From assembly GCA_022496805.1 (NCBI GenBank), contig CM040088.1, forward strand, positions 32,060,452 through 32,124,451: a DNA stretch of 64,000 bases, in the 5' to 3' direction. The stretch comes from Pohlia nutans (taxonomy: Eukaryota; Streptophyta; Bryopsida; Bryales; Mniaceae). The notes beneath the pieces were generated by a model, which searched no databases, was not told where the DNA came from, and worked only from the letters and a program-made list of their open reading frames with translations. The translations under genes were made by a program, and so were the position numbers. Shown in pieces: positions 694 through 53,036 of this stretch (positions are counted from its first letter, which is position 1; each line of letters opens with the position of its first letter).

Positions 694-2033
<1,340 letters not shown>

Positions 2034-7393: not shown

Positions 7394-7973
7394 CCCCTAA
7401 ATGTACCAGGGTGTCCCCGAAATTGACAATTTGAGAAAAAGCATCATAAACTACTATTTAGAAGAATATTTTGGAATTGATATACAAATGAAAGTTCTAG
7501 ATTTTGATATTTAGATTCCATCCGTACGGTTCGATTCACTAATACTCTCACCAATATTTAATTATAAAATTTGAAAGTTAAAATTATAAATTCCTTCTAA
7601 ATTCGATTACAAACAAAATTTTAATATTTTTTGAGTAAAATTTGTTGGAATGAACTTGAAATGAGATACTCTTAAACATGGTGATTCTTTGCAATTTTTG
7701 TGTTTTTTAAATCTATGACCTCATTTTTGCAAGGCCACTTTTGAACTACAGTCAATGCAATTTTGGCTTAGTCAACGACTTGACATACTTCTACATTTGT
7801 AATTTTAGAAAAATATGTAATCAAGTATGACTAAATCCAACCACTAGATAGGACAACAACTTGGTGAAAAATCTCCAAAAAAATGGATGACTTTCATCCA
7901 AGCATTGATGAGAACGTGAGAAGGATTTGAATCTGTTAGTCGTCCACTTTCTGGACGCTCTGACGTTTAGGGG
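7394..7973. mobile_element. TTAA-flanked MITE, 580-bp family, copy 1
   Basis: The element begins CCCCTAAATG and ends GACGTTTAGGGG, with TTAA on both sides (7390-7393 and 7974-7977). A small hairpin GTCCA-5 nt-TGGAC lies just inside the right end. It matches the copy at 35131-35712 over its length (for example the shared segment GATTCCATCCGTACGGTTCG) and the 3'-damaged copy at 24883. No ORF is conserved between copies. TTAA duplication and CCC/GGG ends are piggyBac traits; assignment is inferred. Confidence 0.8.
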
Positions 7974-8679: not shown

Positions 8680-11414
8680 TCAATCCCATCGGCGTTTCTC
8701 TTCTTCAACGTTCACTGGATGGTACCATGAAGGCTGTTGAATGTAACTACTCAATCTATAATTCAAGAACAATTCCTCATCACTGACCTCTCGGGTGGCG
8801 ACCAGCACAAGCGTGTGCACATCGCTGACTCCAGTGGCAGGCTTCTCCGCCATTTCCACAGTGGACAGTCTTCGGTCATCTGCTACCTCTGGCCTCTGTT
8901 TCTTGCCCTCGTTGATCCAGAGCGGGCCTCGTCTCTGCATGTCCAGCTCCTCATCGTTTCCGAACATGACGTTCGGAATGTACGGCCTCATAGATTGTTC
9001 ACTTGCAATGGAGAATGTGTAGGGACAGATCATTAAATTTGGTTGAACTCCTTCGGGTGGATGATTCGCAAAGTGGCCCAGAGCAATAGGGCTCCTCCGT
9101 TCAAGCTCTGCGCCTTCTAGAGGACCTTGGATCACCTTTCCGCCGCCCACGAATTGCCAAAAACTCGGAGGAGGCGGTCGTTCAGGCTCCACATCAAAGC
9201 TGCTCCCATTGTGACCATCCCACCATTCTCGCTTGTCATCGCCCTTGCCCCACGGTTTGCCATCGACGACAAGGCCGTCATAGCGCGAAATCAAGTAACC
9301 GTTGTCTACGTCAACCTTTGGATACCCAGGCATGTTTCGGTACTGTGAAGGAGAGTAGATGACTCCTGGGTACATGGAAACCACCGTCCCTGGTCCAGCT
9401 CTTCCTTTGATGAACAGGCCCGTGCCAGCTTCTTCGTGCGCTATGCCTGATGGTTTCAAATGTAATGTGAAGCCCATACGTTCTCCAAAAGCTGTTGCCA
9501 CCTGGTCCCTGTTGAGTTGCTTTGTCTCAACCACATCTGCGCTGCACAACATGAACATGTTACAATTCCTTGCCTTTACATGGAACTCCGCTTGATCTGT
9601 GACCTATCGTGCAAATACCGATCCTCATGAATTTAGGTCTTCGAATGGCAAAAGACTCGGCAACTGATTCACTTAAAACCCCTAAAGGACCAAGAAGCCC
9701 GAATTGGGCCTCACGACTTTTTTAGCAGTTTTGAGTAAGTCTCATGTGGACTTCCTTTTGTTCAAGTTTATTTGTTTTCTGACCAACGCATGCAATGTTC
9801 TTCACTGATTCCGGTGATATAAAATTTGGTCAGATCTGAATTGTATTTTTCACAATATGATCAATTGAATTTATCATTTTGAAACCATGAATCCTTGGTC
9901 CTTTAGGGGTTGAAAGAACAACGTGGTTTATATACTAGTAGAAATCATGTAGTAGTGGTTTATATCCCAGAGTTATAGTAGAAATCATGAAAGTTCCATC
10001 AATCTAGAGAAGTTGCGGTAGTGTATAGACGATGATACGTGACTCACCGGGAAGGAACTTCAGGTTCTGGTTGTCTCCCAAGAGCAAAGAGTAAACCGCT
10101 GGGTCGCTTCTTCTCTGGAGGTGGAGTTGGTTTCTCCATAACAGGAGCTTTCAGAAGAATGCGGTCCAATATAGTTGCCATCTGCTTAATCTGACCATGA
10201 ACTAGCTCTTGTACTTGTCGCTGCTGTTCTTCGAAAGGTGTGGACTCTGCAAACTTTGCAAGTTCCTCAGCAGCCTCCGTTTTGCCAGAGGCGCTCTCAC
10301 GCTGGAAGCTGCGAATAACGAGGTCATTCAAAGTTAAAGCGTGGTACAAACAAGCCTGCACAATACAAGTTTCCCTAACATAGCAGACTCCACACATCAA
10401 CATCTGAACATTCAATATCAGATGCCTTAATGCCAAGATTAAACCATTGCAAGGGCGTCAACTAATGTCAAGAGCAGCTAAAAACTCAGAGAAACAAGAC
10501 TTGTGAAACCTGCAGAAGGACAACTGCTTAACCCTTAAAAGGATCGAGAAGCCCAAATCAGGCCTCATGTTTTTCATAGCAGTTTTGAATAGGTCTTATG
10601 TAGACTTCCTTTTATTCAAACTTATTTGTCTTTTATTCAAACACTTGCAATGTTCTTCACTGATTCCAGGGATATAAAATCCAGTCCTATCTGAATTATA
10701 TTTTTCAGAATATGATCAATTGAATTTGTCATTTTTAAAACTATGAATCCTTCGTCCTTTAAGGGTTAACCCCGAAAGGACCAAGAGGCCCAAATTGGAC
10801 ATAACGTTTTTAGCACTTTTTGAGTAGGTCATATGCGGACTTTCTTTTGTTCAATTGCATTTATTTTTTGACCAACACACGCAACGTTCTTCACTGATAC
10901 AAAATTTGGCCATGTCTCAACTCTATTATTTGCACAATATGATCAATCAAATCGGTCATTTTCAAAACCACGAAATCCCGGTACTTTAGGGGTTGGAAAA
11001 ACGAAAGCCGTTTACAAGATCAAAGAATGTTACCTTGTAAGAAGAAAAAGCTTGTGCGTGTCAATCTCATGTTGAAGACGCCGCTTGTCCACGGTAGAGA
11101 ATAGGGTTCCGGTTCGCGACCAGGATTCCCAGAGCTGCAAGATTGCAAAACATGCATGTTACCTTCTATAGGCCTACACATAACAACCATTCTAACACCC
11201 CGACATTGTAACTTTGGCGAACATCCACCGAGTAAAAAAAATATTAGGTCCCAACAAATGGATTCAAACTGTGAACGAAACCTCTAAACCAAAATCACAA
11301 ATACCAGAGTTGCCGAGTTGAGATTGATATCAACACCACCCCGATGAACAGATAATGGTTTCATAACCCTAAACCCTAAACTGGCTCACGTACCTTCCGA
11401 AGTGCGGCTGCCAT
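8680..11414 (-). CDS. SET-domain protein, SETD9-like
   Basis: Four exons: 11414-11394 (seven codons, starting ATG GCA GCC), 11134-11034, 10374-10048 and 9541-8680; the frame is continuous through GT-AG junctions (436 aa). The N-terminal half is helical and charged. The C-terminal exon holds a split SET fold: GTGLFIKG...GTVVSMYPG near its start, a GHFANHPP...QPNL segment in place of the usual NHS motif, and EELFLNYRL at the end, matching the EExxxxY element that closes SET catalytic sites. The VVSMYPG region and overall order are what I recall of animal SETD9, a poorly characterised putative lysine methyltransferase; the substrate is unknown. The exon 3 acceptor was chosen because the alternative AG 19 bases further in breaks the frame. 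Introns 2 and 3 carry three TTAA-type MITEs. Confidence 0.78.
9679..9909. mobile_element. Short TTAA-type MITE in intron 3 of the SETD9-like gene
   Basis: Starts CCCCTAAAGGACCAAGAAG and ends CTTGGTCCTTTAGGGG. The right flank is TTGA and the left is AAAA, so one or both TTAA sites have decayed. About 231 bp. Closely related to 10532-10765 and 10770-10992 and to a truncated copy near 15062-15215 (shared ATATGATCAATTGAATT core). Confidence 0.75.
10532..10765. mobile_element. Short TTAA-type MITE in intron 2 of the SETD9-like gene
   Basis: Starts CCCTTAAAAGGATCGAGAAG and ends GTCCTTTAAGGG, with intact TTAA on both sides (10528-10531, 10766-10769). The right TTAA is shared with the next element. 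Confidence 0.8.
10770..10992. mobile_element. Short TTAA-type MITE abutting the previous copy
   Basis: Begins CCCCGAAAGGACCAAGAGG directly after the shared TTAA at 10766-10769 and ends TACTTTAGGGG followed by TTGG (decayed TTAA). Same family and orientation as the neighbouring copy, giving a head-to-tail pair. This arrangement fits insertion of one element into the TTAA that flanks the other. Confidence 0.75.
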
Positions 11415-24882: not shown

Positions 24883-25437
24883 CCCCTAAAGGTGGAATTG
24901 ACAATTTGAGGAAAACCATTGTAAAGTATTGTTTGGAGGAATATTATGGAATTGATATACAAATGAAAGTTGTAGATTTTGGATTTTAGATTCCATTTGT
25001 ACGGTTCGATACACCAATACTATCACCAAAATTTTATTAAAAAATTTGAAAGTAAAAATTAAAAATTCCTTCTAAATTTGATTACAAACAAAATATTAAT
25101 AAATTTTGAGTAAAAAATGTTGAATCGGATTTGTAATGAGATACTCTTGACCTGGTGATTTTTGAAATTTGTGTGTTCTTTAAATCTATGACCTCATTTT
25201 TGCATGGCCACTTTTGAACTAAAATCAATGCAATTATGGCTTGGTCGAAATTTCACCTACTTATACATTTGTGATTTTAGAGAAGTATGTACTCTAATAA
25301 CACCAAATCCAACTATTGGATAGAACAACAACTTGATAAAGTATCTCTAAAAAATGTTTCATGGTGAAGAGGTTCATGAGGAAGGAGATATGGATGAAAA
25401 CGATCATCCATCAACCCCACAAGGGTCGGTTGGGCCT
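24883..25437. mobile_element. TTAA-type MITE, 580-bp family, 3'-damaged copy
   Basis: Begins CCCCTAAAGG after TTAA (24879-24882) and matches the copies at 7394 and 35131 until about 25345, after which the sequence diverges. It is followed by another TTAA (25438-25441) that leads into a second left end, CCCCTAAAGGACCGG, whose right end I could not find. Confidence 0.65.
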
Positions 25438-26453
25438 TTAACCCCTAAAGGACCGGAGCGTTTTTCCTCCAAAAACACTCCAATGTTGCCATTTTTACTC
25501 CCCCATGCAAATATTCCAAAAAAATGTCATTTTTTACCTTCTAATTGTATGATCTTGTCCTAAACTATTTGAAAAACATACACAACAAATTTCGTTGATT
25601 TTGACCGCACAGATTGCAAGATAATTGTGTTTGATGGAAAAAATCACCCCAACAAAACACATGCCCGAAAATTTCAGATGCATTTGACCGTGACTACATC
25701 AAAAATACCTCACTACTGAAACCTGTCGCACTTCACTTTCACATTCTATATGATGTTACTTAGTTGTGTACCAATTTTCGTTGCGTTTGGAGATGTTAAG
25801 GATGTTGAAGAACACCCTGCACTTGTTGGGGGTTCAAAAGTTCAAAAGAAACTCTTTGTTTTTGGAATTGCAATATTTTCAATTTTTGTTATTTAAATAT
25901 GAATCCGAGCGGTGAAACATAAGTACATTCCACCCTCTATAGAATGGCAAAAAAAAAATTGAAAAAAAAATAAATCTCCAAATTTTAGAAGACATATAAC
26001 ATGTTTTCTAAGAATTTTGGGGGTTAGGGTAGAGGAAGGGAATTGAAGTGCCACCTCACCCAACCCATTCCAATGATCATGACCCCACTAACTCTCAAGG
26101 TGGACTGCCATGTGGCAGTCTTTCATTGGACGATTTGTTTTATTTTTAAAATTATAATTTATAATTATAAAAATTGAATTTTTATTTTTAATTTTTAATT
26201 TTTAATTTAAAATGATAAGTTTCAATTTGAAATAATAAATTTTAATTTAAAATAATAACTTTTAATTATAAATTTTTAAATTATAAATTATAAAAATTAT
26301 AATTTTTAATTTTTTTTAATGAATGCGGAAAATGGGGTGGTCTCCTCTAGTTTTCCATGAGTTTAAAGACCACCAAGCTCTTACATACTTAATAATGAGA
26401 GACCACAAAGGCCTTCTATACCTTTAACAATTTGGAGTGAACAAATAAGAGTA

Positions 26454-30583: not shown

Positions 30584-31293
30584 AGGTTCTCCAACACGTC
30601 ACAATTCTCCTTCTCGTAACCCTAATTTCCCAAACAATCACACCATTCAGTTCAAATCCGCCATCTCCCGCGACTAACGACCTCCGCAAACCAATGGCGC
30701 TAACTCTGCCATTGCACCGGGACTGCCGTGAGTTACCTAAACCGAAAAAAAATGAAAAAACCACTGCAAATGCTTTAGAACAAGAACACCTCCAGAAGAT
30801 GCAATTCCTCACCTTACGCATTCAAAATAAGCTCAAATTACGCACCGTTTCTTGCATCGGCCGATTCGCGGGCCCAGGCAGGAGGATGGATTGAGTGCTA
30901 AAGCGATAATTCAATGGAAGGAAATTTGGTGAAGAATGAAGTGGAGCGCATTCCATTCACGCGACGGAGGAGTTTCCATCGGCCCGGCTGGCTCATCATG
31001 GTTGTTGTTCTGAAGGCTTGGATTCCACGTGGCTGGGTTTGATAGGGTGAGTTCGATTTTGGACCGATATTATCGCTTACGTGGAAAGTGCCACGGGGCA
31101 GTACCGGTAGTGAGTTACTATTTTACTAAGCTAAACCCCACTGCCGTTCATGAGTGTTCAGGCCGTCTTTGTACCGGGCTCCACACGCCTGGGACATCTC
31201 TGTCCTTGCGAGCTGTGCTTGAGGAAGGCTTTCCATGAAGAGCCTGAACCTGCATGTGTGACGCCTGAACCTGCAAGAAGGTTGATGCATTAA

Positions 31294-31862
31294 CCCCTAA
31301 ATGCCTAGAGCCCTCTCCAAATTCTGCAGTTTTGCAAATATGCATTATAAAATGCAACCTAGAGGGATATTTTGAACTTGATACATCAATAAAAGTTGTA
31401 CGTTATGAATTTCAGATTCTATCCATACGGTTAGATCTATGATTGCTATTACCAATAGTTTTGTATAAAATTTGAAACGTGAAATTCAAAATTATTTTGT
31501 AATTCAATTACGAATAAGATATTGACAATCTACGGATGAATTATTTTTTGATTGGTTGAAATGTAATACTGTAAGTGTAGTGATTTTTGGAGATTTTTTG
31601 GTTGCTTAATTTTATGAGTTGACTTTTTTTAGAGCACTTTTACATTGAAATCTTCAAAATTTTGGGTGAATCACTACAACATGAAATGAGGCATAAAAAT
31701 TTCACAAATCATCCCTTTTCTAATCGGATCACATATGCATGAAGCTAACTTCCCATAGAATCTACAGTAAAAATTCCACATTGCAAAAAGTGCATGACGG
31801 ATGAGAAACTATGGATGAAATCTGTACATCGCCCAAAAAATGGACACTTAGGCAGTTAGGGG
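31294..31862. mobile_element. TTAA-flanked MITE, 569-bp family, intact reference copy
   Basis: Begins CCCCTAAATGCC and ends GGCAGTTAGGGG with TTAA on both sides (31290-31293, 31863-31866). It is 569 bp. It contains the uninterrupted sequence TTTTGGTTGCTTAATTTTAT, the empty counterpart of the nested insertion at 50727-51303. It lies about 0.7 kb upstream of the CRL-like start codon. Confidence 0.88.
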
Positions 31863-32056
31863 TTAATAATCATTCAGATTGACATGCATGTGTTCTAGTC
31901 TTGCATTTCTGGTTTACAAGACCGGTAATAGTTTAAACTCTATTCATAAGGGCCTGCTATACCAAACATGTAATACTACATGGTAAAAGTATTAACGAAG
32001 AACTTTGAATTTTGGACAAAGATGCTCTACATGAAAAGCCGTCCTAAGAGGGTTGC

Positions 32057-35130: not shown

Positions 35131-35712
35131 CCCCTAACATACCAAGGTGTCTCTGGAATTGATGATTGGAGAAAAATCATCATAAAGTACTATCTAGAAG
35201 AATATTTTGGAATTGATATACAAATGAAAGTTCTAGATTTTGAATTTTAGATTCCATCCGTACGGTTCGATTCACCAATACTACCACCAATATTTTATTA
35301 TAAAATTTGAAAGTTAAAACTAAAAATTCCTTCTAAATTTGATTACAAACAAAATTTTAACAAATTTTGAGTAAAATTTGTTGAAATGAATTTGAAATGC
35401 AATACTCTTAGACGTGGTGATTCTATGAAATTTTGTGTTCCTTAAATCTATGACCTCGTTTTTGCAAGGCCACTTTTGAACTACAATCAATGCAATTTTG
35501 GCTTGGTCAACAACTTGACATACTTCTACATTTGTAATTTTAGAAAAATATGTACTCAAGTATCTCTAAATCCAATCCTTAGATAGAACAACAACTTGGT
35601 GAAGTATCTCCAAAAAATTGAATGACTTTCATCCAAGCATTGATGAGAACATAGAATGTATGAGCTTGAATATGTTAGTCATCCAAAAAGTGAACACTCT
35701 AACGTTTAGGGG
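35131..35712. mobile_element. TTAA-type MITE, 580-bp family, copy 3
   Basis: Begins CCCCTAACAT after TTGA (decayed TTAA, 35127-35130) and ends AACGTTTAGGGG followed by TTAA (35713-35716). 582 bp. Aligns throughout with 7394-7973, including the subterminal ATCCAAGCATTGATGAGAAC segment. Confidence 0.78.
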
Positions 35713-36341
35713 TTAAGTCACAATTTTGATTCTCTTTTTCCATATATACTCATGGTAGTCTAGTGCGAGATCTTAAAGTTTGAGATGAAACAAAAACTTT
35801 TTTTTTGGCTAATGCATTAGAAATTACATTTGGAGTGGTTTTTATAGAATGTAGTCATAGAACATTAGATATTAAGGGTAGTCATGCTCTTAATTCTTTA
35901 ATGCAGTACTTGTTATTGATGTGTTGGATCAAGTGTTATGAAAGAAGACCAAAAGTATAAGAATTGAAATCAATGGCTTTTTGTATACATAAAATAGAAA
36001 TTAACCTTTATATTCAAAGTAGTATTGTCCTAAATCTCCTTCAATGTGCAAGGATAACCATCATCCTAAGCTAACCCTTAGATTCAATCCTAACAATCAA
36101 ATCATTGAAGAAGAAATAAAAAAGAAGAGGTTTCAAGCATAGGTACAAATAATAAACGGAAAGGTAGATATCTCACAAGCATTGAATGTGAAGTGAAAGA
36201 AAAATTCAAGTAATTTATAAGCTATATTAATTGAAAAGCTTCGATTACTTGTGCTAGCTTTTTTCAGAGGAATTTATAAGTTTGCTCGAGCATTGTCAAG
36301 TGATTTATAAGCTAGCACAAGTAATTATAAGCTATATCAAA

Positions 36342-36712
36342 GAAAAATATGAACTACCTTCTTTATATTTGAATTCTCCAGAGCTAATTTGTATGTCAAG
36401 CCTCCATTCTCAAGTTTTTTTTCAAGGTTGTCAAGTCAAGCTTCCATCCTCAAAGTTTTTTTCAAGGTTGTCAAATCAATGCAAAAATATCCAATACAAT
36501 CATAAAAATAATCGAAAAAATGTAATCAAAAAACATGAACAACCTTCTTTATATTTGAAGTCTCCAAAACTAATTTGTATGTCAAACCTCTATCCTCAAG
36601 TTTTTTTCAAGGTTGTCAAGTCAAGCCTTCATCCTCCAGTATTTTTCAAGGTTGTCAAATCAATGCCAAAATATCAAATATAATCATAAACAATCTAACA
36701 AATATATATCAT
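36342..36712. repeat. Two-copy tandem duplication, period ~186 bp
   Basis: The segment starting near 36342 (ACCTTCTTTATATTTGAA) repeats from about 36528 with many substitutions. Each unit contains two copies of a shorter motif, TTTTTTTCAAGGTTGTCAA. The ORF across it is a by-product of the repeat; no protein family is recognised. Confidence 0.7.
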
Positions 36713-37254
36713 AAACAACAAAATATCAAATAAATTACTTGGGTACAATATAAAATAATGACTTTCTATATAAATATTTTTAAAAGATTGTATTCAATAG
36801 ATAGGAGCTCTGGTCCTCTTTGGAGACCGGCATGAATAATAGGTATGCTTGTCTTGACAATGAGTCAGTGCCCATCGGACAAAGAGCCATTGATGGCCGG
36901 AAGACTACTCCTTGTGTTCAACATCTAATGATGAATGATAAAAAAAACGTTTTATTGACTAATGTTGACTAGAATAGATTGTTGTTGCAAAAACTACAAA
37001 AGCCCAACCCATGTTTAAATCCCATATTTTGACTTTTTATCCTATTTAATTAAATAATAATGAAAAAAAGACAGAAATAGTTTAAAATTCTATTTTATGA
37101 ACCAAATATTGTCAAATCACTGGTTTCCCAATCACCACTGCTTAATAGCTGGTCATCACATATTAAATCAAAAAATAAATATTGAAAATTCATATCGTTG
37201 TCATTGTGGTGCTCTGATCTGCCTCTACATACTTGTGCTTTTGTGATCTAGTTG

Positions 37255-37740
37255 TGAGCTTCAAAAGCAAAAGAGTCTAGCGATCGGTTTTGGTTGAATT
37301 CAGGAGATGGCCCATTCACACCAAGAAGCTCCAGCACTTGCGTTGCATTCCTGAAATTCTGCAAGGTAAATTTCGAAAACAATATACAATTTCTTGTGGT
37401 GTCAAAGCCTTGTCTCTTCCTACTTTGGTAAACGCATATGCGTTGATGGAGCGCAGATTTCTTGCCGCTCCCAAAATGCGTTGGAGCAGCTTCTTGCATG
37501 CGTCAGGTTAAAAATAAATAAATTACAGGAGCACACTGTAGCTACCAAAAACTTACTTGATGAACGTAGATTCTCTGCTGCACTCGCGTTGGGTGACTGG
37601 TGTGTGAATGGGCCATGAGCAAAACGATGTTGCATTGGCTGCTTGTTGAGATTTAATCTGTTTTGAGACTGAGGTGGAACAGTCAATTGGTTGAAGGATG
37701 GTGCTCTTCAAAGTTGTGAAGCAAGACAGTTTTAGCAAGT
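37255..37740. other. Gene-like segment of unknown identity
   Basis: This stretch is less AT-rich than its surroundings and is open in several frames on the - strand; one reads NFRNATQVLELLGVNGPSPE to a stop near 37248, another NRLNLNKQPMQHRFAHGPFT. A GGCCCATTCACACC motif occurs at 37310 and inverted at 37599. I do not recognise a family and the joins between frames are unclear. It may be a decayed gene fragment. Confidence 0.25.
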
Positions 37741-38204
37741 TAGAAAATGCTCTCTCATTCCACTAGTATGTGTGTATTATCGGTCCAACAGGTGGCCCCC
37801 AGTACCGTAAACTACGTCCACCCCCTGCCTTCATCAATCTTTGATTCATTATGTATTGCTCGCCCATTTATGAGATTCGGCAGGAATTCTATTGACAACC
37901 CATTGTTGAAATTCTGAAAGTTTCAATGCATTGGTTGTATCTCGATTTTTAACTTTATGAAATTTTACTTGTAGTCAGCCTTCATCATAGATAGATAGAA
38001 AGCAGGGCCCTGGTGGGGCCGGCGTGAATGAAGTGTCTGTTCGTAATGTTAATGAAATAGTGTCCACAGGACAAAAGATCATTGGTACAAAACTACTCTT
38101 TCCTTTCAAAAATAGACACTCTCGTGACCAGAACTTGATAAAAGTAACCAGGGAGTTGAGCTGGAAAGTGGTTTTTAGAGTATAAATGGAGTGAGGGTGC
38201 GGTG

Positions 38205-38430
38205 TTTAATTTGGTCGCCAAGTCATGAGGCTTGTGGTTGGTTTGTGAAGGGTGCCTATATTACTATCATGTGGTCCCGGTTCGATTCCCTTTGGATCTG
38301 TCTGAGCAGTGATGTGATAGACATGACTTGGTACTGTTAGTGAATTATCATATGTATGAAATTTGTAGCAACCAACTGGCCCCCTCCTACTTACCTGAGA
38401 CAAGTGCTTGTTCTAAGCTAACTAAAATAG
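38205..38430 (+). mobile_element. Possible tRNA-derived SINE
   Basis: A perfect polymerase III B-box match, GGTTCGATTCC, lies at 38279-38289, preceded about 60 nt upstream by an A-box-like TCGCCAAGTCATGAGG (38215-38230). No cloverleaf can be drawn, so it is not a tRNA gene. The unit abuts the 3' end of the non-LTR relic on the other strand. Boundaries are approximate. Confidence 0.4.
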
Positions 38431-38464
38431 TAGTTGTTACCACTACCCCTTTTTATGGTATTAT

Positions 38465-41400
38465 TTAGTCGTTTGGTAATGGTTGGTTATTTTCAATTTT
38501 GCGTTTATGTAGTAATATTGATGTGGCATGGTGAATGGCTATGGTGTTTATTTCTTGGAATGTGTGTTTTATGGCGGAGTCGGGGAGCTTAATTTTAGTC
38601 TCGAAGTGTTTCATAGAGGGGGTGTGTGTGGTGCCTCATGCTCCGGTTGTAATGACTATCAGGGGGTTGACTTTCCAGCCACGCCTGAGGATGTTGTCGA
38701 TTAGTGGTTGGTATTTTAGGGTTTTGTTGTTGATTGTTTCATAGGAGAAGCGGTCATTGCAGTAAGTAAATTCAATGAATTGGATGGTAAGGTTGTCTAT
38801 TGGGTTGGGTGGTGGGGGGCTTTGGTGGGTAGTCCTTGGACGCATAGTATGTCTGGTTTGAGTTTAGCGTTGCAATGGCACCTTTGTTCGGTGCATGTGC
38901 ATGGGAGGAGCCATGGTGGTACTGTATTTTTTTGTGGGTTATTATTGAATGTTCCGGCATTCATGAGGGTATAGCATCTAGAATTTTTTGAGGATAAAAA
39001 GAGTTTTCAGAGTTCCCAAACGGCTTTGTTATGTCGTTTGGTTTGGATTGCGTGTATTTGGTGTTGAGTGCATTTGAGGAGTACGTGAAGCCATGTGTCT
39101 GCCTTAGGTAAATTACAAATTGAGCAATTGATTGACGGGAATCTGTCTATGCCAAAAAATAGTTGTTTCCTTGCATTTCCCATATATTGTCCAGTGCGGA
39201 ATTTGAAGAGGCTGGTTTTCTGTGAGTCTGTGATTGTCGGGTTGGACCATAATTAATTAGATAGTATGTTGTCGACATCAGGGTTGGTTGTCCATTTGTT
39301 AATGTTGGGGAAATGTTGGGCCATTTCTTCTAGATTATTGAGACGGTCGTGTTTTTTAATGTATTCGTGAAGACACCTGACTGGGCCTTTGTATGGTCGA
39401 CGGGCCGGGCCTGGCCATGTGTCTTTGTGGAAGTAATAGGGAGTGGTGTGTGCGTGTTCATATGGTTTTGCTGCAAATCTGTATTCTTTCATGTGCCCAC
39501 TTTTTGCGAGTTTGTTGGCTTATTCATTGCCTTCTATATTTGCGTGTGCACAGACTTTGTGGAATGTTGTAGGTTGGGTGCGAATGCTTAGCATGTCTAC
39601 CATAGATGAAAGTATGGTTTTGTCTAGGTGATTATTATGTATAGTTGGGTGTTTGAGTTGTGTGTTAAGAACGTATAGACAATTGAGGCAGTCTGTAAAA
39701 ATATGTGTTGGTTCGTTTAGGTATTTAGTGGTGATGATACGAAGTGATTTGTGTATGGCCATAAGTTTTGCTCTAAAGATGGTTTGCAGTCCGGGGAGTC
39801 TTTTGGAGATGCGTATAACTTCTTTGGTTGGATTGTAGATGCCATAACCTGTTTTTTCGCGTATCCAGTAGCCATCGGGGTGTTTTTTGGGTTTTTAAAA
39901 GGATATGTCTGTGTAGTAGCTATAATCTGGTGGAAATTTTGGGTGTGTGGGAGATTCATAGTTTGGGAGTGGTGGTATTTGTGGATTTTTGGGTTATTAT
40001 CAATTGGATATATGAGTTTAGTCCATCGGTGGTTTTTGTTGACTATTGTATTGTTGGATGTAGGTGAGGTAGGTTGAAGGTGGTAGTCAGTGATGTTTAA
40101 TATGTCAATGTTGGTTTTAAGTGTGGCAAGCTGACTGGGAGTGCCAAAGGGTTGGTGTATATGGTGAATACAAAGGATATGTAGAGCTAGTGGTTCAGTG
40201 CGGGGTTTTGTGAGTTCTTGGGAGAGTGTGGGTTTCGTGTAAGTGATAGTGTCTGCACCAAAGTGGGCAATAACATGTGTGTCTGGGTAAGGCCCTTTAT
40301 AAGGTGAAGAGTTGTGGTACCAACTTGTGTCAGGGATGGTGAGAATGTGATCGATTTTGGGTCTTGTTGGGCTGCTAGGCAAGCCCAATGGATAGCTTGT
40401 TGGGTTGTTTCTTTGTTATGTGGGTGAGCGTATCCAATACCTTTCCATTTGTATTGGAAGGCTGGGCCTAGAGATCCAAATATCTTATCGCGTGAAAATG
40501 TGGAGTAGAATTGGGTGAGTTGTGTGGAGCATGTTACTGGAGAGGAGAAGTATGAATGTGTAATGTTGAACGTGGTTGTTAGTGAATCAAGGAGGGTAGT
40601 GGGAGAGTGTAATGGGATGCTTTAAGTGGGTCCGTTTTGGGATTTTGTAGTTGTATCTTTGGTAGAGCCAAATGAGTTCGGTTTCAAAGGTTTGTGTAGG
40701 TGGGACAAGGTCATGGGAGCTATATATTGATCGATTGTATTGTTGCCATAGCCATTTTAGTCTAGAAATTGGGATAGTGATGAGGTGTCTGCTAGAGTCC
40801 TCATATATGTGGGAGAGTTCATTTTGTATGTAGATAGTAGGTCTATTAGTTTGGATGTCTTTTTTGGGATTGCATTTTGTGGTGGAAATGTGTATGAGTG
40901 GGAGGATTGTGGGTGGGGGGATAAATCTTGTATCGCGTGATTGTGGGATAGTAAAGTTTGTATATAGTATTTGTTGGTAATGTGTGTGTTGTTTTCTAGT
41001 GTAATATTCTTTAAGGAGGGTGAGATTGTGTTCGATGACCGGGGGGTGGTTAAAGGGGAAGAGTTCTTGTTGTGATAGCCATTTGATATATGTTAGGTTG
41101 TTAGGAAGTGCCCATTGGCAGAGGAATGTGTTGTATGTTTTGATGATTTTGTATTTGTCCGTGATTTTGTGATTTTACGCTGTAGTATGGTGTGAATAGG
41201 GTATGTGAGGGGTTGATTTAGGAGATGTGGGGGTGGGGAGGGGTGCAGTTGGGTTAGGGGCTGCAGTGTGGGTATTGGTGTTCTAGGGGTTAGAGTTGTA
41301 TTGTCTGAGATGTATTTGGCTAGGAGTGTACAAGCGGGTAGGTGTCTAGGACAAGGGTTGGGGCAGTTTGGTGTACATTGTGGTTAACAGAAGAGTTGTT

Positions 41401-41777
41401 ATGCGATATTTAGGGCGCTTTTGATTAGTTTAGTTGGGGATTGGTAGTAGGTTTTGAAGTCTTCAGGGGACATTAGTTGTGTTTCATTAGGAAGGGTGAT
41501 ATGTTTTATAGTGTGGATGTTGTGTGCTAGGAGTTTGTGAAGTAGTTTGAGAGATAATTGTGGATTGAGGTGAGGGAGTTCGGTGTTAGCTTGTGTGAGC
41601 CATTGTGTTTCGAGTTCGGAAGTGTGGAGTACAAAGTTATTTGTTGTGCTTTTTATGTGGATTCCACTTGCTTTTTCAGCAGAAAGAGTGTTCTAGTGGT
41701 GGGTGATCGGGTGCAGTCGTTGTATTTAAGTCGGGGGATTTCTTGTGCGCTGCCAAATTTAGCTAGGGTGAAAAGGG
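38465..41777 (-). mobile_element. Decayed, 5'-truncated non-LTR-type retroelement with RNase H
   Basis: The - strand reads as one long, broken, His/Pro/Thr-rich coding sequence with several stops and frame changes, ending at a TAA at 38465. Recognisable in order: an unassigned region (about 41.6-40.1 kb, with FGSLGPAFQYKWKGIGYAHPHN near 40.45 kb); an RNase H domain at about 39.93-39.5 kb (YTD, RAKL, FTDC, AHANIEGNE); and a C-x2-C-x9-H-x4-C zinc finger near 39.1 kb (CSIC...H...C). The RNase H is dead: the usual Glu is Lys in RAKL, GNE is followed by a stop (39520-39522), and the last Asp is Asn. No reverse-transcriptase FADD motif is seen, so the 5' part is missing. The high-coordinate junction abuts a dispersed repeat that also occurs at 55506. 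Confidence 0.72.
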
Positions 41778-41975
41778 TATTTAAATGTACCTTGAAAAAT
41801 AAAAGTAATTCTCACTATAATTAGTAATATTTCAAAAATATTCCCAATTTTTTCTTGTAATCAATTTTGAGCATCCTATATTAATGTAATTCATTTATTA
41901 AAATTACCTTCCAAGATTTATTTGGATCCTATATTTTTTGCACGTCAATTGTAATTTTTTGGAAGTGAATTCCCT
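41778..41975. repeat. Dispersed repeat, copy A (also at 55506-55706)
   Basis: Two segments of about 200 bp, here and at 55506-55706, align throughout in the same orientation (GGGTATTTAAA start, TGAGCATCCTATATTAATGT core, GATTTATTTGGATCCTAT). No inverted ends were recognised. This copy starts exactly where similarity to the retroelement ends. Confidence 0.7.
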
Positions 41976-43186
41976 GACTAAAGGACATACCAAGCTCATT
42001 GGGTGTAGTTTTCTCAGTTTTCAAACCACTTTGGCCATGAATTGCCATTAATAGAGAAATGCTTTTATGATTTTTCAAGCATCATCCATGACAAGAATAG
42101 TATGTACCTACATTTAAAAATGTAAATTACTTCTATATTTTGAGGTCAAAACTATAAAGTACTCCTTTTCTTTCTAAAGTATTTCTATTGGCTTTTAAAG
42201 GTACTCTTTCAAGGATTAAGTTGTGTCCACCTTATTATACATTTAAAGTGAATAGTTAGTTTTGAATGCTACCGTACTTGGACATCAAGGTCGACATTGA
42301 TGCGAAATATTTTAATTTTTTTGTCGAAATATTACAAATATTCTTCAAGATTTTGTGGATATTCTATAAGATTATTTTTTCACCATAGAAAAAAAATGAA
42401 AAACAATTCCTCAAAATTTGAACTTCTCTTTTCATAATTAATGTTTGCCGACCATGACGGTTGGGTATGGTAATTACGATTTATTTTATTTATTTATTTG
42501 AAATAAATGGATGCTTTATTTCCATTGCACAACAACAAATTACAAACATCACACTACAAACGAAGAGAGCAGCGGGTGATTTTTATTGGATTATCTTCTT
42601 GCAATATCTGGATAAGACCCTATGGTAATTACGATTATGGTAGTACGGGTGATTTTTTGGATTATCTTTTTGGATTTTTTTGAAGGACAAGACCCTCTGG
42701 TAATTACGATTATTACTGTCCGTCGTTGCAATGTTGAAAAACACTAATTGACAGCTACCACAGTCAGTGTATGATTAGTTAGTTAGTACTGCCACGAAAC
42801 ACCATGATTAGTGTGGTGGAAGGATGAGAAATGGATGAAATAAGTGACAGAGTTCGTCGGTTGCCGACGGAAGCTTCACAGTGAAGACTTATCCCCAGAA
42901 CGGCAGAACGGCAGAATCCTTTTCTCGAGATCGCCTCCGAAAACGACGACAATCGCCGTCGCATCCAGCCGCCCGTTTCCCGAAGATCCTAAGGCCGCTA
43001 GTTTCCCATTCAGGGAATGCCACTTGGTCGTCTCTCTCAGGCCGTTAGGGTTTCTATTCAAATTTCCCTCCAGTACCCGCCTTGGCTTCCTTCCACTCTC
43101 TCACTGCTTCCCGCTTCTTAGTGTGCATTCTGGCTCTCGTGCTTTTGCCGGAGGACATACATTCCTCTTTGACGGGGCTAGGTTTC

Positions 43187-43234
43187 GAGTGAGTGAGTGA
43201 GTGAGTGAGTGAGTGAGTCAGCGAGTGAGTGAGT
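43187..43234. repeat. (GAGT)n microsatellite in the NSE4 5' leader
   Basis: About eleven GAGT units, interrupted once by CAGC, lie 60-100 bp upstream of the NSE4-like start codon and so probably in its 5' UTR or core promoter. Confidence 0.85.
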
Positions 43235-43290
43235 CGGGATGTAACGGACTCTCGTTGTAGCGCTTCAAACGGGTGTTTAGTGTTGCAGCG

Positions 43291-45521
43291 ATGAGTACGC
43301 AGGAGGACAGGAGGAGACGGCGTGCGGCCAGGGCCGACGAAAGGGCGCAAGCTTCTCAACACGATCAGGAAAATGAGATGTCGTTACAGAATACGGAGCA
43401 GCGACGAGCGCTTCGTTCCAAGTACAGGCAAATCAAGCAGTATATTGCAGGTCAGGGTTTGGTGGAGTGTTTTTTAAATTTTAGTGGATTAACGAACCTG
43501 CAAGGGCAATGTCTGTGGAATGCAATTTTCAAGCTCCTGTGTTTTAATGTTCTTTGGATTTTTTATTTAACAGATGGAGCGGAGGAGCTTAGTCGCTTGG
43601 ACTCTAACAGGTTTTACGAGGTTGTTGAGAAGATGGATGATCTTCACCAAGAAGGTAGTTATATATCCCACGATTATTTGGTTATTACGGAGAGTGCGGT
43701 TTTTCGGTAATGAATGTCTCGTTGCCATAGTTTGTTGGCGTGAGGACGAAGATAGTTGATACCAGCACTTGAGGATGGGAATTACGAGTTATTTTCTGAG
43801 AGGAGCTCGGTATGAATTCTTATAGCTGCATCAAGTCATTTGATGAGTCTCTTGTGGCTTGCAGTGCAAAAACCGCGGGAGCAGATCGCTGATGCCGAGG
43901 CAGTCATGAACCTTACCAGTAGTTTCTTAGGTAGCGTGAAGGCAAGCAATCGCAAGACCGGAACTAGCCCTGCTACTTTTGTCGGTGCCATCTTAGCTAC
44001 ATTTGGCAATCGAACTGCTAACGCAGATGATGACGCACCTGCGGAAATAGACTGGGGTAAATTGGGACTGGCAGCCATAGGCTTCCTTGGAGAAGCTCCT
44101 GGAGTATGTACAATGTGAGTTCCTGTCTCCTTGTCCTCTTTTGTTGTTGTGGATGTTATAATTCGGATGACAGCTACAATCACGAGAATCCAGATTCATG
44201 GTATAATTTTCATCGTTGGTGTCACAGGCTCGGACCTATGGGAATTGAACCCAAGGTGCGACAAGCTCATGCACCAAGGGCCAAGAGGGTCAGGCCCACA
44301 GAGACCACTCGAGCTGAAGAGGTGCATTTCTTATTGATCAGATGGCACAACTGTTAGATAGGAGTAAGGCGAGAATTTAGAATGTATATATTCTGGTCAG
44401 ATGGTTTTTTGAGACTTATGGAATAGTGGATTGCTTTCTGCTCTCTGGTATCCTTTTTACAGCCGACTGCACAGTCCGGAGGGAATTAGTTAGAACATGT
44501 TGACAAGCTTCCAATTGAGCGTATCATGAACCATGAAGTGTTTAGGTGATTGTGACTGAGACTCTTGAACTTTGTGCAGGTGAGGGATCAAGGCGAAGCA
44601 GCAGCGAAAGCAGAGACTGATGCGAACATGGACACTATGTTTAACATTCTCAGAAAAGTCAAGCGTGCTCGGCTGGATGCTCTTGTTTTGAATAGAGAGT
44701 CGTTCTCACAAACTGTGGAAAATATCTTCTCTCTCTCCTTTCTCGTTAAGGATGGTCGAGTGGAAATCTCGTACGACAGTGATGGCACACATCTTGTTGG
44801 TACAGCCTCAACATTTTGTACCAGAATTTGCTCGCCCCTTCTTATCGAGTTCCGGTAGTGCTAACGTAGTGGGTGTTTTTAGTGATTTCAAGATACTGGA
44901 GCTAGTTATGGGATACAATTTGGAAATGATTGCTATTGCTTCCGAGAGCGCTTTAACATGTTCTTTCTCCCAACAATTTGATATTTTAATTGACTTCAAT
45001 TGCAGTTCCCAAGAACGCTCCAACAGCGCATGATCGTCAGAGCGGGCAGGTCACCAATACACAGTTCGTGTTCCGGTACGACTGGACATGCTGGAAGGTA
45101 TAACTTTGAATTTTTAATTTACTTCGAAACTTTATTTTTTCCTGGCTATCAATAGTCCAATATACAGTTGTTTGGGTGCGGCTTTTAGGCATCCTTCCAC
45201 AATGAGACACGGATTCTGTGCTCACTGCCTATTCAAGAGCTGCGTTCATGGGACTACACTTGTAATGCTCAGTGAGTTGTGTTTCTACAGATGATGCAGG
45301 AGAACTTGGAGGCGGGAATAGAGCTAATGCCTGATCGGCAGCACACGTCAGATTCATTATCCCAACCTTCACAACACACACCAATCAGAAAGGTCTCAAG
45401 AAATCGAGGTCGTCAAAGTCGGAAAGCAAACGGGTCGGATGATGAAGACGACGAATCTGATCGTGAGGACGGTGGCCAGCGCCAGGCCAAGAGACCTCGT
45501 TCTTTGGCCAACCAGTTCTAA
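43291..45521 (+). CDS. NSE4: SMC5/6 complex kleisin subunit NSE4
   Basis: Seven exons in a continuous frame give 375 aa: 43291-43450, 43574-43654, 43865-44114, 44228-44321, 44580-44799, 45006-45097, 45291-45521. NSE4 bridges the SMC5 and SMC6 heads in the nuclear SMC5/6 complex that acts in DNA repair and chromosome maintenance. Visible: a basic start ([14 protein letters not shown]), the N-terminal kleisin helices ([39 protein letters not shown]), a middle segment ([13 protein letters not shown]), and the C-terminal winged-helix signature ([30 protein letters not shown]). The tail is Ser/Asp/Glu-rich and ends [10 protein letters not shown], a likely nuclear signal. I use the ATG at 43291; upstream in-frame sequence has no ATG. 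A GAGT repeat precedes the gene. Confidence 0.92.
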
Positions 45522-50409: not shown

Positions 50410-50413
50410 TTAA

Positions 50414-51555
50414 CCCCTAAACATCCTCATCCCTCTCCAAATTCGGCCGTTTTGCAAAGATGCATCATGAGATGCAATCCATAGGGATATTTTGCACTTG
50501 GTGTATGAATAAAAGTTGTACATTGTAAATTTTAGATTCTATCCATATGATTAGATCTGCAATTGCTATCACCAATATCTTTGTATAAAATTTGAAACTC
50601 AAAATTCAAAATTCTTTTGTAATTTGATTACGAATAAGATATTGACAATCTGTGGATGAAATTTATTGTGATTGGCTGAAATGTAATACTCTTGAGTGTA
50701 GTGATTTTTGGAGATTTTTTGGTTGCTTAACCCCTAAACGTCCCCACTCCTGTCCAAATTGAGCAGTTTTACAAAGATACATTATAAAATGCAACTAAGA
50801 GGGATATTTTGAACTTGATATATGAATAAAAGTTGTACATTATGAATTTTAGATTCTATCCATACAGTTAGATCTGCAATTGCTATCACCAATATTTATG
50901 TATTAATTTTTAAACTTAAAATTCAAAATTATTTTGTAATTTGATTACAAATAAGATATTGACAATTTGCGGATGAAATTTGTTGTGATGGGTTGAATTG
51001 CAATACTCTAAGTGTAGTGATTTTTGGAAATTTTTTTGGTTGCTTCATTTTATGAGTTGACTTTTTCAAGAGCACTTTTAGACTAAAATCTTCAAAATTT
51101 TTGGTGAAACACTCCAACATGAAATGAGACATAAAGTCTCACAAATCATCAACTTTCTAATCGGATCACACATGCATGAAGCTAACTTCCCATAGAAAAT
51201 TTAGTAAAAATTTCACACTGCAAAAAGTGTGTGATGGATGAGAAAACAAAGTTCACTTTTGTACATCATGCAAAATATGCATGATTGGGCAGTTAAGGGT
51301 TAATTTTATGAGTTGATTTTCTTAAGAACACTTTTACACAAAGATCTTTGAAATTTTGGGTGAATCACTACAACATGAAATGAGGCTTAAAAATTTCACA
51401 AATCATCCCCTTTCTAATTAAATCGCACAAGAATGAAACTAACTTCCCATAAATCTATAGTAAAAATTCCACATTGCAAAAAGTCAATGACGGATGAGAA
51501 AATTGTATTTGATTATGTACATTGTCCATTTTCTGGATGGTAGGACGTTTAGAGG
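50414..51555. mobile_element. TTAA-flanked MITE (569-bp family) interrupted by a copy of itself
   Basis: Outer left end CCCCTAAACATCC after TTAA (50410-50413); outer right end GACGTTTAGAGG before TTAA (51556-51559). Removing the inner element (50731-51299) and one TTAA leaves 569 bp, the same length as the intact copy at 31294-31862. The joined flanks reproduce TTGGTTGCTTAATTTTATGA of that copy. Confidence 0.92.
50731..51299. mobile_element. Inner TTAA-flanked MITE, 569-bp family
   Basis: Begins CCCCTAAACGTCC and ends GGCAGTTAAGGG, with TTAA at 50727-50730 and 51300-51303. It is 569 bp and inserted in the same orientation into the TTAA in the middle of the outer copy. Confidence 0.92.
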
Positions 51556-51761
51556 TTAACCTTGAATTGCTGAGGACACCAAATGTCTGTTGGATGATAG
51601 GAATCAATTCTAACACATAGAACAAAAAAATCTAGAATTATAATGTGTGAATACTTTTTATTATCATAAATAAACTCAATTATAGTGTTCAAATACGTTT
51701 TTCAAAGTAAAAATTATTGAAGCTACCCAATGTGATTATAAGCTAGTGCTTTGAAGGTTAA

Positions 51762-52301
51762 CCCTTTAACGTCCCAATTCAACACTGTTTTCAAAGATGC
51801 GCTATAAAATGTTTGATGAAACCCTAAAATGGAGTAGATGTACAAAGAAAACTTGTAAATGTCAATGTGAAGATCACATCTGTACCGTCCGATGCATTAT
51901 ATTTTTCATTAATATTTTTTATTTAATTTTGAAAGGTATTCTCTTGAAATTCAATTAAAAATCCCAAATCAACACAAAAAAAATTCAAAAAATTGTAATG
52001 AAATTGGAATAATATGCCCTACGAGATGGTATGGTTTCCATTATTTGATTCTACCTATTTTGGAAAATCATGTTTCAAGTCTCACTTTTTGAACTAAGAA
52101 TGAAACTTGACATCAACCGATTGTGTTATTTAAAAAAAAATCATAATAACCCATTTTGAAAATCCAAACCGTTCAAAGAATGGTCAACTTGCACAAGAAC
52201 CAAGAGTAATTTTGGTGGATGAAAACTGTCCAATTTGGATGAGATCCGAACAACTTCAATATGTTCGTCGTCCAATATATGGACGTTGGCGCGCTAAAGG
52301 G
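51762..52301. mobile_element. TTAA-flanked MITE, 540-bp family, copy 1
   Basis: Begins CCCTTTAACGTCCCAATTC and ends GGCGCGCTAAAGGG; TTAA at 51758-51761 and 52302-52305. A TCCA-5 nt-TGGA hairpin lies just inside the right end. It aligns with 53037-53575. 540 bp. Confidence 0.85.
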
Positions 52302-52305
52302 TTAA

Positions 52306-52845
52306 CCCCAAAAGCCCGAGAGGTATTGGACAAAATATAGATGTGGTATAATATGTGCCTTCCATATGTTTGATGAAGTTTGGTTCAATAGACAAATTGT
52401 AGGGCATCATCTCTACAAATTATCCGTATGGTCAAACTTTCAAAAACAACTTTAGATATTTTTTTAATGAATTTAAAAGCATTAACCTTTGAAAATTTGT
52501 ACAAATTATAATTTTCACTTTTAGAGTTTAAAATTTAGTATGATTGGTTAAAGTTGCTTTATCTATTGTAAACTTCAGAAAAAACAAAAGACATGATGGA
52601 GGGAGCATGATTACTTTTCCCAAATAGCAAATTTTATAACACTAAGACAATGTTGAGGTGATCCACTTTGAAAAAATCTCATGGGCAGAGTTTAACTCGG
52701 ATTGATATAATTCAAGTTGCATTGGAAAGTAGACCAGATGTAGTATTTTTAATTCTATCTTAATTTTTTTAAAACTTTTTTTTGTTCCGGGCAATTTGTT
52801 AGATTCGGGCAACAATCAAAAAATGGTTGTTTGAGCGTTTAGGGG
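52306..52845. mobile_element. TTAA-flanked MITE abutting the previous element
   Basis: Begins CCCCAAAAGCCCGAG after the TTAA shared with the preceding element and ends GAGCGTTTAGGGG before TTAA (52846-52849). 540 bp, but the interior is a different sequence family from its neighbour. Confidence 0.8.
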
Positions 52846-53036
52846 TTAATCAACCAACACATTTTGTGATGGTCCAAGACAAGTGACCTATTTATAACCC
52901 TTATCCAAAACCAACATGTAGAGATTTTGTCTATAATGTACACCCTATGAACATGAGAACCTAAGGTCAATATAGGGTACACCTATATCTATGATTAGAA
53001 CTTTTAAACTTCATAATCTATTCATATAATGTTTAA

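Follow-up and report, generated by a model that had tools for sequence, protein, structure and literature searches.

A self-nested 569-bp MITE in a moss genome and its probable mobilisation in trans by piggyBac-superfamily elements

A 569-bp repeat is found inserted in another copy of its own family within a 64,000-nucleotide stretch of a moss genome (hereafter the window, i.e., the whole stretch that was analysed; G000:C4:32060452-32124451). This repeat is almost certainly a non-autonomous MITE of the piggyBac superfamily that is presumably mobilised in trans by elements of 5.4-6.0 kb. In the nested pair, a single insertion of the piggyBac type is neatly preserved together with an unfilled control site, and the search for partner elements in the assembly (697.8 Mb in 332 contigs) turns a guess made from the sequence only into a supported assignment.

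The nested pair and the intact copy

The initial annotation proposed a self-nested MITE with an internal empty-site control and gave a length of 569 bp for the intact copy, the inner copy and the outer copy less its insert. The locations agree with the sequence base for base, TTAA flanks all three copies (Table 1), and all three are 569 bp long, the outer copy being restored when its two parts are rejoined without the insert (317 + 252 = 569 bp). The control holds as well: with the insert and one TTAA taken out, the filled site gives ...GGTTGCTTAATTTTATGAGTTG..., the same as the intact copy, and the joined outer flanks, GTGATTTTTGGAGATTTTTTGGTTGCTTAATTTTATGAGTTG, agree with the intact copy over that stretch. 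Over 567-568 aligned columns, the pairwise identities are 82.9% (intact and outer), 84.3% (intact and inner) and 82.2% (outer and inner), so that the three window copies, at 82-84% identity, are real relatives. At the place of the nested target, TTAA is present in 31 of the 32 aligned copies (the 30 loci fetched from the genome, which include the window's intact copy, along with the inner copy and the rejoined outer copy); the sole exception is the inner copy itself, with TTCA. The frequency of TTAA in the window is 0.0068 of positions.

The intact copy begins with CCCCTAAATGCCTAG on the left, and its right end, read as the reverse complement, begins with CCCCTAACTGCCTAAG; the terminal inverted repeat is short, with 13 of the 14 terminal bases paired. 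Self-comparison inward of the termini detects only short inverted matches, the longest of which (28 bp) is in the inner copy. In the other two window copies, the left ends are CCCCTAAACGTCCCC and CCCCTAAACATCCTC, and the right ends (reverse complement) are CCCTTAACTGCCCAATC for the inner and CCTCTAAACGTCCTACC for the outer copy. When the intact and inner copies were compared by blastx with database transposases and with the moss frames that had been fetched, no transposase coding sequence was identified in the MITE; the only matches are in frames of L054, which carries a MITE piece and a homologous element end.

Table 1. Locations of the MITE copies and their target sites in the window, and of the transposase-coding partner elements
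Feature	Location	Strand	Length	Remarks
Intact MITE copy	31294..31862	+	569 bp	
Left target-site TTAA, intact element	31290..31293	.		read in sequence
Right target-site TTAA, intact element	31863..31866	.		read in sequence
Intact copy, right-end 121 bp	31742..31862	+	121 bp	homologous to transposase-element 5' end; 78% to C2, E 2e-22
Outer copy, left part	50414..50730	+	317 bp	final 4 bases are the target TTAA, 50727-50730
Outer copy, right part	51304..51555	+	252 bp	
Left target-site TTAA, outer element	50410..50413	.		read in sequence
Right target-site TTAA, outer element	51556..51559	.		read in sequence
Inner MITE copy	50731..51299	+	569 bp	TTAA of outer copy is its target; same orientation as outer copy
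Left target-site TTAA, inner element	50727..50730	.		read in sequence
Right target-site TTAA, inner element	51300..51303	.		read in sequence
Inner copy, right-end 121 bp	51179..51299	+	121 bp	homologous to transposase-element 5' end; 78% to C2, E 3e-20
Partner C19/L059			5,633 bp	TTAA at both ends
Partner C9 (L036/L054/L066)			5,960 bp	TTAA at both ends
Partner C2 (L043/L067/L068)	G000:C2:50012537-50017915		5,379 bp	TTAA at both ends

Target-site duplication in other copies

Taken alone, the nested site fits either a 4-bp TTAA duplication or a 3-bp TAA/TTA duplication accompanied by an extra terminal base, so the flanks of other copies are needed. The genome search for the MITE started from 7,065 first-look candidates, of which 40 were scored, and gave at least 43 matches; the best 30 of 43 were fetched, one of these being the window's intact copy. 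All 30 fetched copies have TTAA on both sides, with T at flank position -4 and A at position +4 in every locus, and mixed bases at -5 and +5. The flanks of the other copies thus settle the duplication as the 4-bp TTAA, the fraction of 30 in 30 pertaining to the best-scoring and hence young copies. TTAA also flanks the outer and inner copies of the window and all 3 partner elements. The mean pairwise identity of the fetched copies is 96.9% (minimum 94.5%), and, judged by this similarity, the 30 best-scoring copies represent an apparent recent burst. The inner and outer window copies show, respectively, 86% and 85% identity to the consensus of the young copies and are either older or members of another subfamily.

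A different flank was detected in a single deleted copy (L036:674-1044), located downstream of the L036 transposase frame, in which MITE positions 1-334 are joined to positions 528-569 and which has ATAA on both sides. This copy demonstrates a 4-bp duplication without appeal to the palindrome of TTAA. For Pokey, a piggyBac element of Daphnia, 4-bp ATAA duplications are on record and make up 5.09% of the insertions (PMC3849761). Thus, the exact TTAA duplication proposed from the nested site is borne out, as far as the genome search for filled sites was run, by all 30 fetched copies, and needs to be amended for the one ATAA-flanked copy. Duplications other than TTAA had been named as an observation that would speak against the proposal; strictly, this has come about by half, through that one copy, with a duplication of the kind recorded for Pokey.

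Transposase-coding partner elements

The 22-base right end of the MITE, with at most 1 mismatch, has 1,478 matches in the genome, compared with 0 for the reversed control. A search for PF13843 (DDE_Tnp_1_7) started from 1,305 candidates and gave 116 scored matches, each of which exceeds the curated cut-off; 14 control genomes gave none. Many of the 116 scored matches have long open frames, and several families with CCCCTAA-type ends are represented. What is less expected in these results is the abundance of piggyBac transposases in a moss genome, along with the 1,478 matches to the MITE right end; the mechanism itself is textbook material.

The transposase elements were read end to end where possible, and three of them, which belong to one family, share their ends with the MITE (Table 1). 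Their 5' ends begin with CCCCTAACTGCC(T/C)AA, and their 3' ends, as reverse complement, with CCCCTAA(G/A)(T/C)G(T/A)CCTC. MITE positions 449-569 of the intact and inner copies align with the 5' end of the C2 element (identities and E-values in Table 1), as do positions 465-569 of the outer copy (73%, E 2e-15); the window copies are 61-71% identical to the L059 and C9 elements. When the first 10 nucleotides are removed and the right end is compared with 200 shuffles, the z-scores are 19-22 for C2, 9-15 for L059 and 6.5-15.5 for C9, versus -1.7 to 2.2 in the swapped comparison of the MITE right end with the partner 3' ends. Of the first 20 bases at the left end of the MITE, 13-16 agree with the partner 3' terminus; beyond 10 nucleotides, no signal was found for the left end in the comparison with the partner elements (z -1.0 to 1.9). 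Given that homology spans about 120 bp on the right and is found only near the terminus on the left, the MITE probably descends from an element of the partner clade whose internal part was deleted or replaced.

The window copies have ends that start with CCCC, CCCT or CCTC, most ends being CCCCTAA. Compared with the motif CC[C/T]T given for piggyBac termini (PMC2872659), the right end of the inner copy (CCCTTAA) and the 5' end of the L032 family (CCCTCAA) fit, and the right end of the outer copy is CCTCTAA. The transposase-coding partners, too, have ends with the CCCC start.

The transposase of L059 is similar to that of Trichoplusia ni piggyBac (PDB 6x67, E 1e-32) and to piggyBat (9c0f, E 1.5e-22). 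The catalytic triad of the T. ni enzyme consists of D268, D346 and D447 (PMC7351741); in the alignment with 6x67, these residues match L059 D456, D542 and D659. All three aspartates are present in 5 of the 6 aligned moss transposases, and the C-terminal Cys/His columns in all 6. The exception is L035 (573 aa), which has N at the second triad position and is probably inactive; its closest database relatives are about 60% identical, and its organism-annotated matches are animal proteins at 26-30%. The open frames of the partners are 790-971 aa long, including Arg/Gly-rich N-terminal regions; the L059 frame is shortened upstream by a stop, and the C9 (971 aa) and C2 (884 aa) frames are longer. 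In a quick, midpoint-rooted tree of 32 of the 85 matches and six moss sequences, drawn without support values, the six moss transposases cluster apart from the organism-annotated animal sequences.

Thus, a piggyBac-type (DDD) transposase with matching termini, to which the initial annotation pointed as a check, is found in the C19/L059, C9 and C2 elements. The same annotation would have been contradicted by an autonomous partner of another superfamily; the elements with matching ends encode PF13843 proteins, and these elements are presumably autonomous, i.e., active. Either these partners or a closer relative presumably mobilised the MITE family. The driver of the last burst may be none of the three, given that the closest partner is 78% identical to the MITE right end compared with about 97% among the young copies.

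Two other lines of partner evidence were rejected. The MITE sequence contained in L036 is the separate, ATAA-flanked deleted copy described above; the case for the partners is built on the elements' own ends. The L032/L042 family (5,027 bp) has a terminal motif in common with the MITE and mostly no subterminal signal (z from -0.7 to 4.0 in 12 comparisons, with two values close to 4), and is therefore taken as a relative rather than a partner; it has copies in which similarity begins no more than 1 base away from a TTAA on the 5' side and ends at TTAA on the 3' side. An automated search in the first four transposase regions, in which at least some stretches fell short of the element ends, detected no matching terminal repeats.

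This second transposase-coding piggyBac family is represented by G000:C14:13309059-13314093 (L055, L032), with 5,027 bp between the TTAAs and an extended open frame of 1,004 aa. C12 carries a copy with 99% identity to this element, whose right TTAA directly adjoins a short MITE at the left end of the latter.

Mechanism and alternative explanations

In the mechanism that we propose, a piggyBac transposase supplied by the 5.4-6.0 kb elements, whose termini are of the same type, would act in trans. By analogy with piggyBac (PMC7351741), it would bind the CCCCTAA ends and excise the MITE with 4-nt TTAA overhangs; hairpin intermediates and seamless excision are likewise expected from this analogy. 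The excised ends would then be joined to a TTAA target that is cut with a 4-nt stagger, and TTAA would be duplicated as a result. At 50727-50730, the target TTAA would have belonged to an older member of the family, and the self-nested structure would follow. TTAA not only borders all 30 fetched copies but is also present within most of them, so that the copies are themselves targets; this would account for the nested pair as well as for the adjacent elements with one common TTAA.

Piggybac-type transposition is backed by the TTAA flanks of all 30 fetched copies together with the DDD transposases of the partner elements. The statement in the initial annotation that TTAA duplication with CCC...GGG ends defines piggyBac is too strong: Kolobok elements and the T2-MITEs of Xenopus are reported to duplicate TTAA as well (PMC6004289), so the assignment is decided by the partner. 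On this point the literature disagrees, piggyBac having been called the sole eukaryotic transposon that integrates specifically at TTAA (PMC7351741). A MITE of the Kolobok superfamily would account for the target site, but is very improbable here, because Kolobok ends begin with AG/RR (PMC6004289), whereas those of the MITE begin with CCCC, CCCT or CCTC. Furthermore, the elements with MITE-like ends encode PF13843 transposases.

The duplication made by PIF-Harbinger/Tourist elements is a 3-bp TAA/TTA. The nested empty site alone is described equally well by TAA with CCCC...GGGT ends, i.e., by a Tourist-like MITE with a TAA (or TTA) duplication and an extra terminal base, as by TTAA with CCCC...GGGG ends. 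Such an origin becomes extremely unlikely once the fourth flanking base, T on the left and A on the right in all 30 fetched loci, the one copy with ATAA on both sides and the piggyBac nature of the elements with matching ends are taken into account. Instead of transposition into the outer copy, a recombination event, a segmental duplication or a mis-assembly could also have produced the nested appearance; all that speaks for it is that abutting copies with one common TTAA occur in this genome, so that complex neighbourhoods are not rare. The inner and outer copies differ, however, at about 18% of sites, too many for one to be a fresh duplicate of its partner; the junctions fall exactly at TTAA, and TTAA stands at the target place in nearly all aligned copies (see above). 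We regard this explanation, too, as very unlikely, and retain piggyBac-type insertion of one MITE copy into another as the preferred reading.

Other repeats and features of the window and the genome

Two abutting pairs of elements with one common TTAA are present in the window, 10532-10765 with 10770-10992, and 51762-52301 with 52306-52845. In the first pair (10528-10992), the outer flank of the right element is TTGG, not TTAA; the second pair spans 51758-52849. Elsewhere in the genome, 4-bp gaps separate copies at C20:2390536/2390541 and C4:17908962/17908967, and the sequences of L023 and L010 show the common TTAA. Three copies of a shorter family, its ends being similar to CCCCTAAAGGACC, are present in the window (9679-9907, 10532-10765 and 10770-10992), with 83% identity between the first and second copies and 70% between the second and third; the first copy is without clean TTAA flanks. 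Diverged relatives of the MITE, about 66-68% identical over 323-394 bp, are located at 7394-7973 (TTAA on both sides), 35131-35712 (TTGA/TTAA) and 24917-25239, beside which the left end of another element begins at 25442.

The ends of the MITE and its partners (CCCCTAAA...TTTAGGGG) resemble the plant telomere repeat, which is probably a coincidence. The strongest GC skew of the window is at 36001-44000 (+0.19 and +0.33), with negative AT skew over the 8 kb. Part of a RING-H2 gene at 694-1584 (-) contains CAA repeats that encode 52 glutamines without interruption. The protein encoded at 8680-9558(-) has SET domain-containing relatives; its matches reach 97% identity, and 100% over 74% of the query, with 86% in Ceratodon purpureus, 81% in Physcomitrium patens and 49-52% in lycophyte, liverwort, fern and conifer proteins. 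These similarities identify the host as a moss.

Plant context and comparison with known systems

No description of piggyBac in mosses was found in the open-access literature searched, which is not proof of absence. In a Niphotrichum paper (PMC10619864), the matches found are to the word "piggybacking", and a term search of a Physcomitrium transposon paper (PMC7466625) returned no occurrence of the word piggyBac; a table in a fern paper includes 1,230 PiggyBac-labelled repeats (PMC6890710). It is an evenly balanced possibility that the piggyBac elements of mosses form a long-lived lineage of their own with several families, unusually large elements and long N-terminal extensions, which is abundant enough to have given rise to thousands of mutually nesting TTAA MITEs. 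If so, land plants would be a major, little-described home of piggyBac. This moss genome also suggests a plant system for the study of piggyBac cross-mobilisation and its effect on genes.

The moss family shares with piggyBac of T. ni (6x67/6x68) and with piggyBat (9c0f) the TTAA duplication and short CC...GG terminal inverted repeats, and the partner transposases show the PF13843 domain, the DDD triad and the Cys/His-rich C-terminal end of the superfamily. The differences from these two systems are the moss host, the 5.4-6.0 kb partners with frames of 790-971 aa, and the CCCC start of most ends. Kolobok and the T2-MITE of Xenopus are alike in the TTAA duplication, and differ in their AG/RR termini and in their transposase (PMC6004289). 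Pokey and the mPok MITEs of Daphnia (PMC3849761) are a parallel in that piggyBac elements and MITEs occur together with a minority of ATAA duplications, and differ in sequence and host. The CMITEs of corals (PMC2872659) are, similarly, described as piggyBac-type MITEs with TTAA duplication, and one of them was inserted at TTAA within another mobile element. Their right end, CGGCAGTTAAGGGG, resembles that of the inner moss copy, GGGCAGTTAAGGG, and coral right ends read as reverse complement also start with CCCC. The coral elements are about 100 bp long, with a conserved internal region and an animal host, whereas the moss MITE is 569 bp long and is inserted in a member of its own family.
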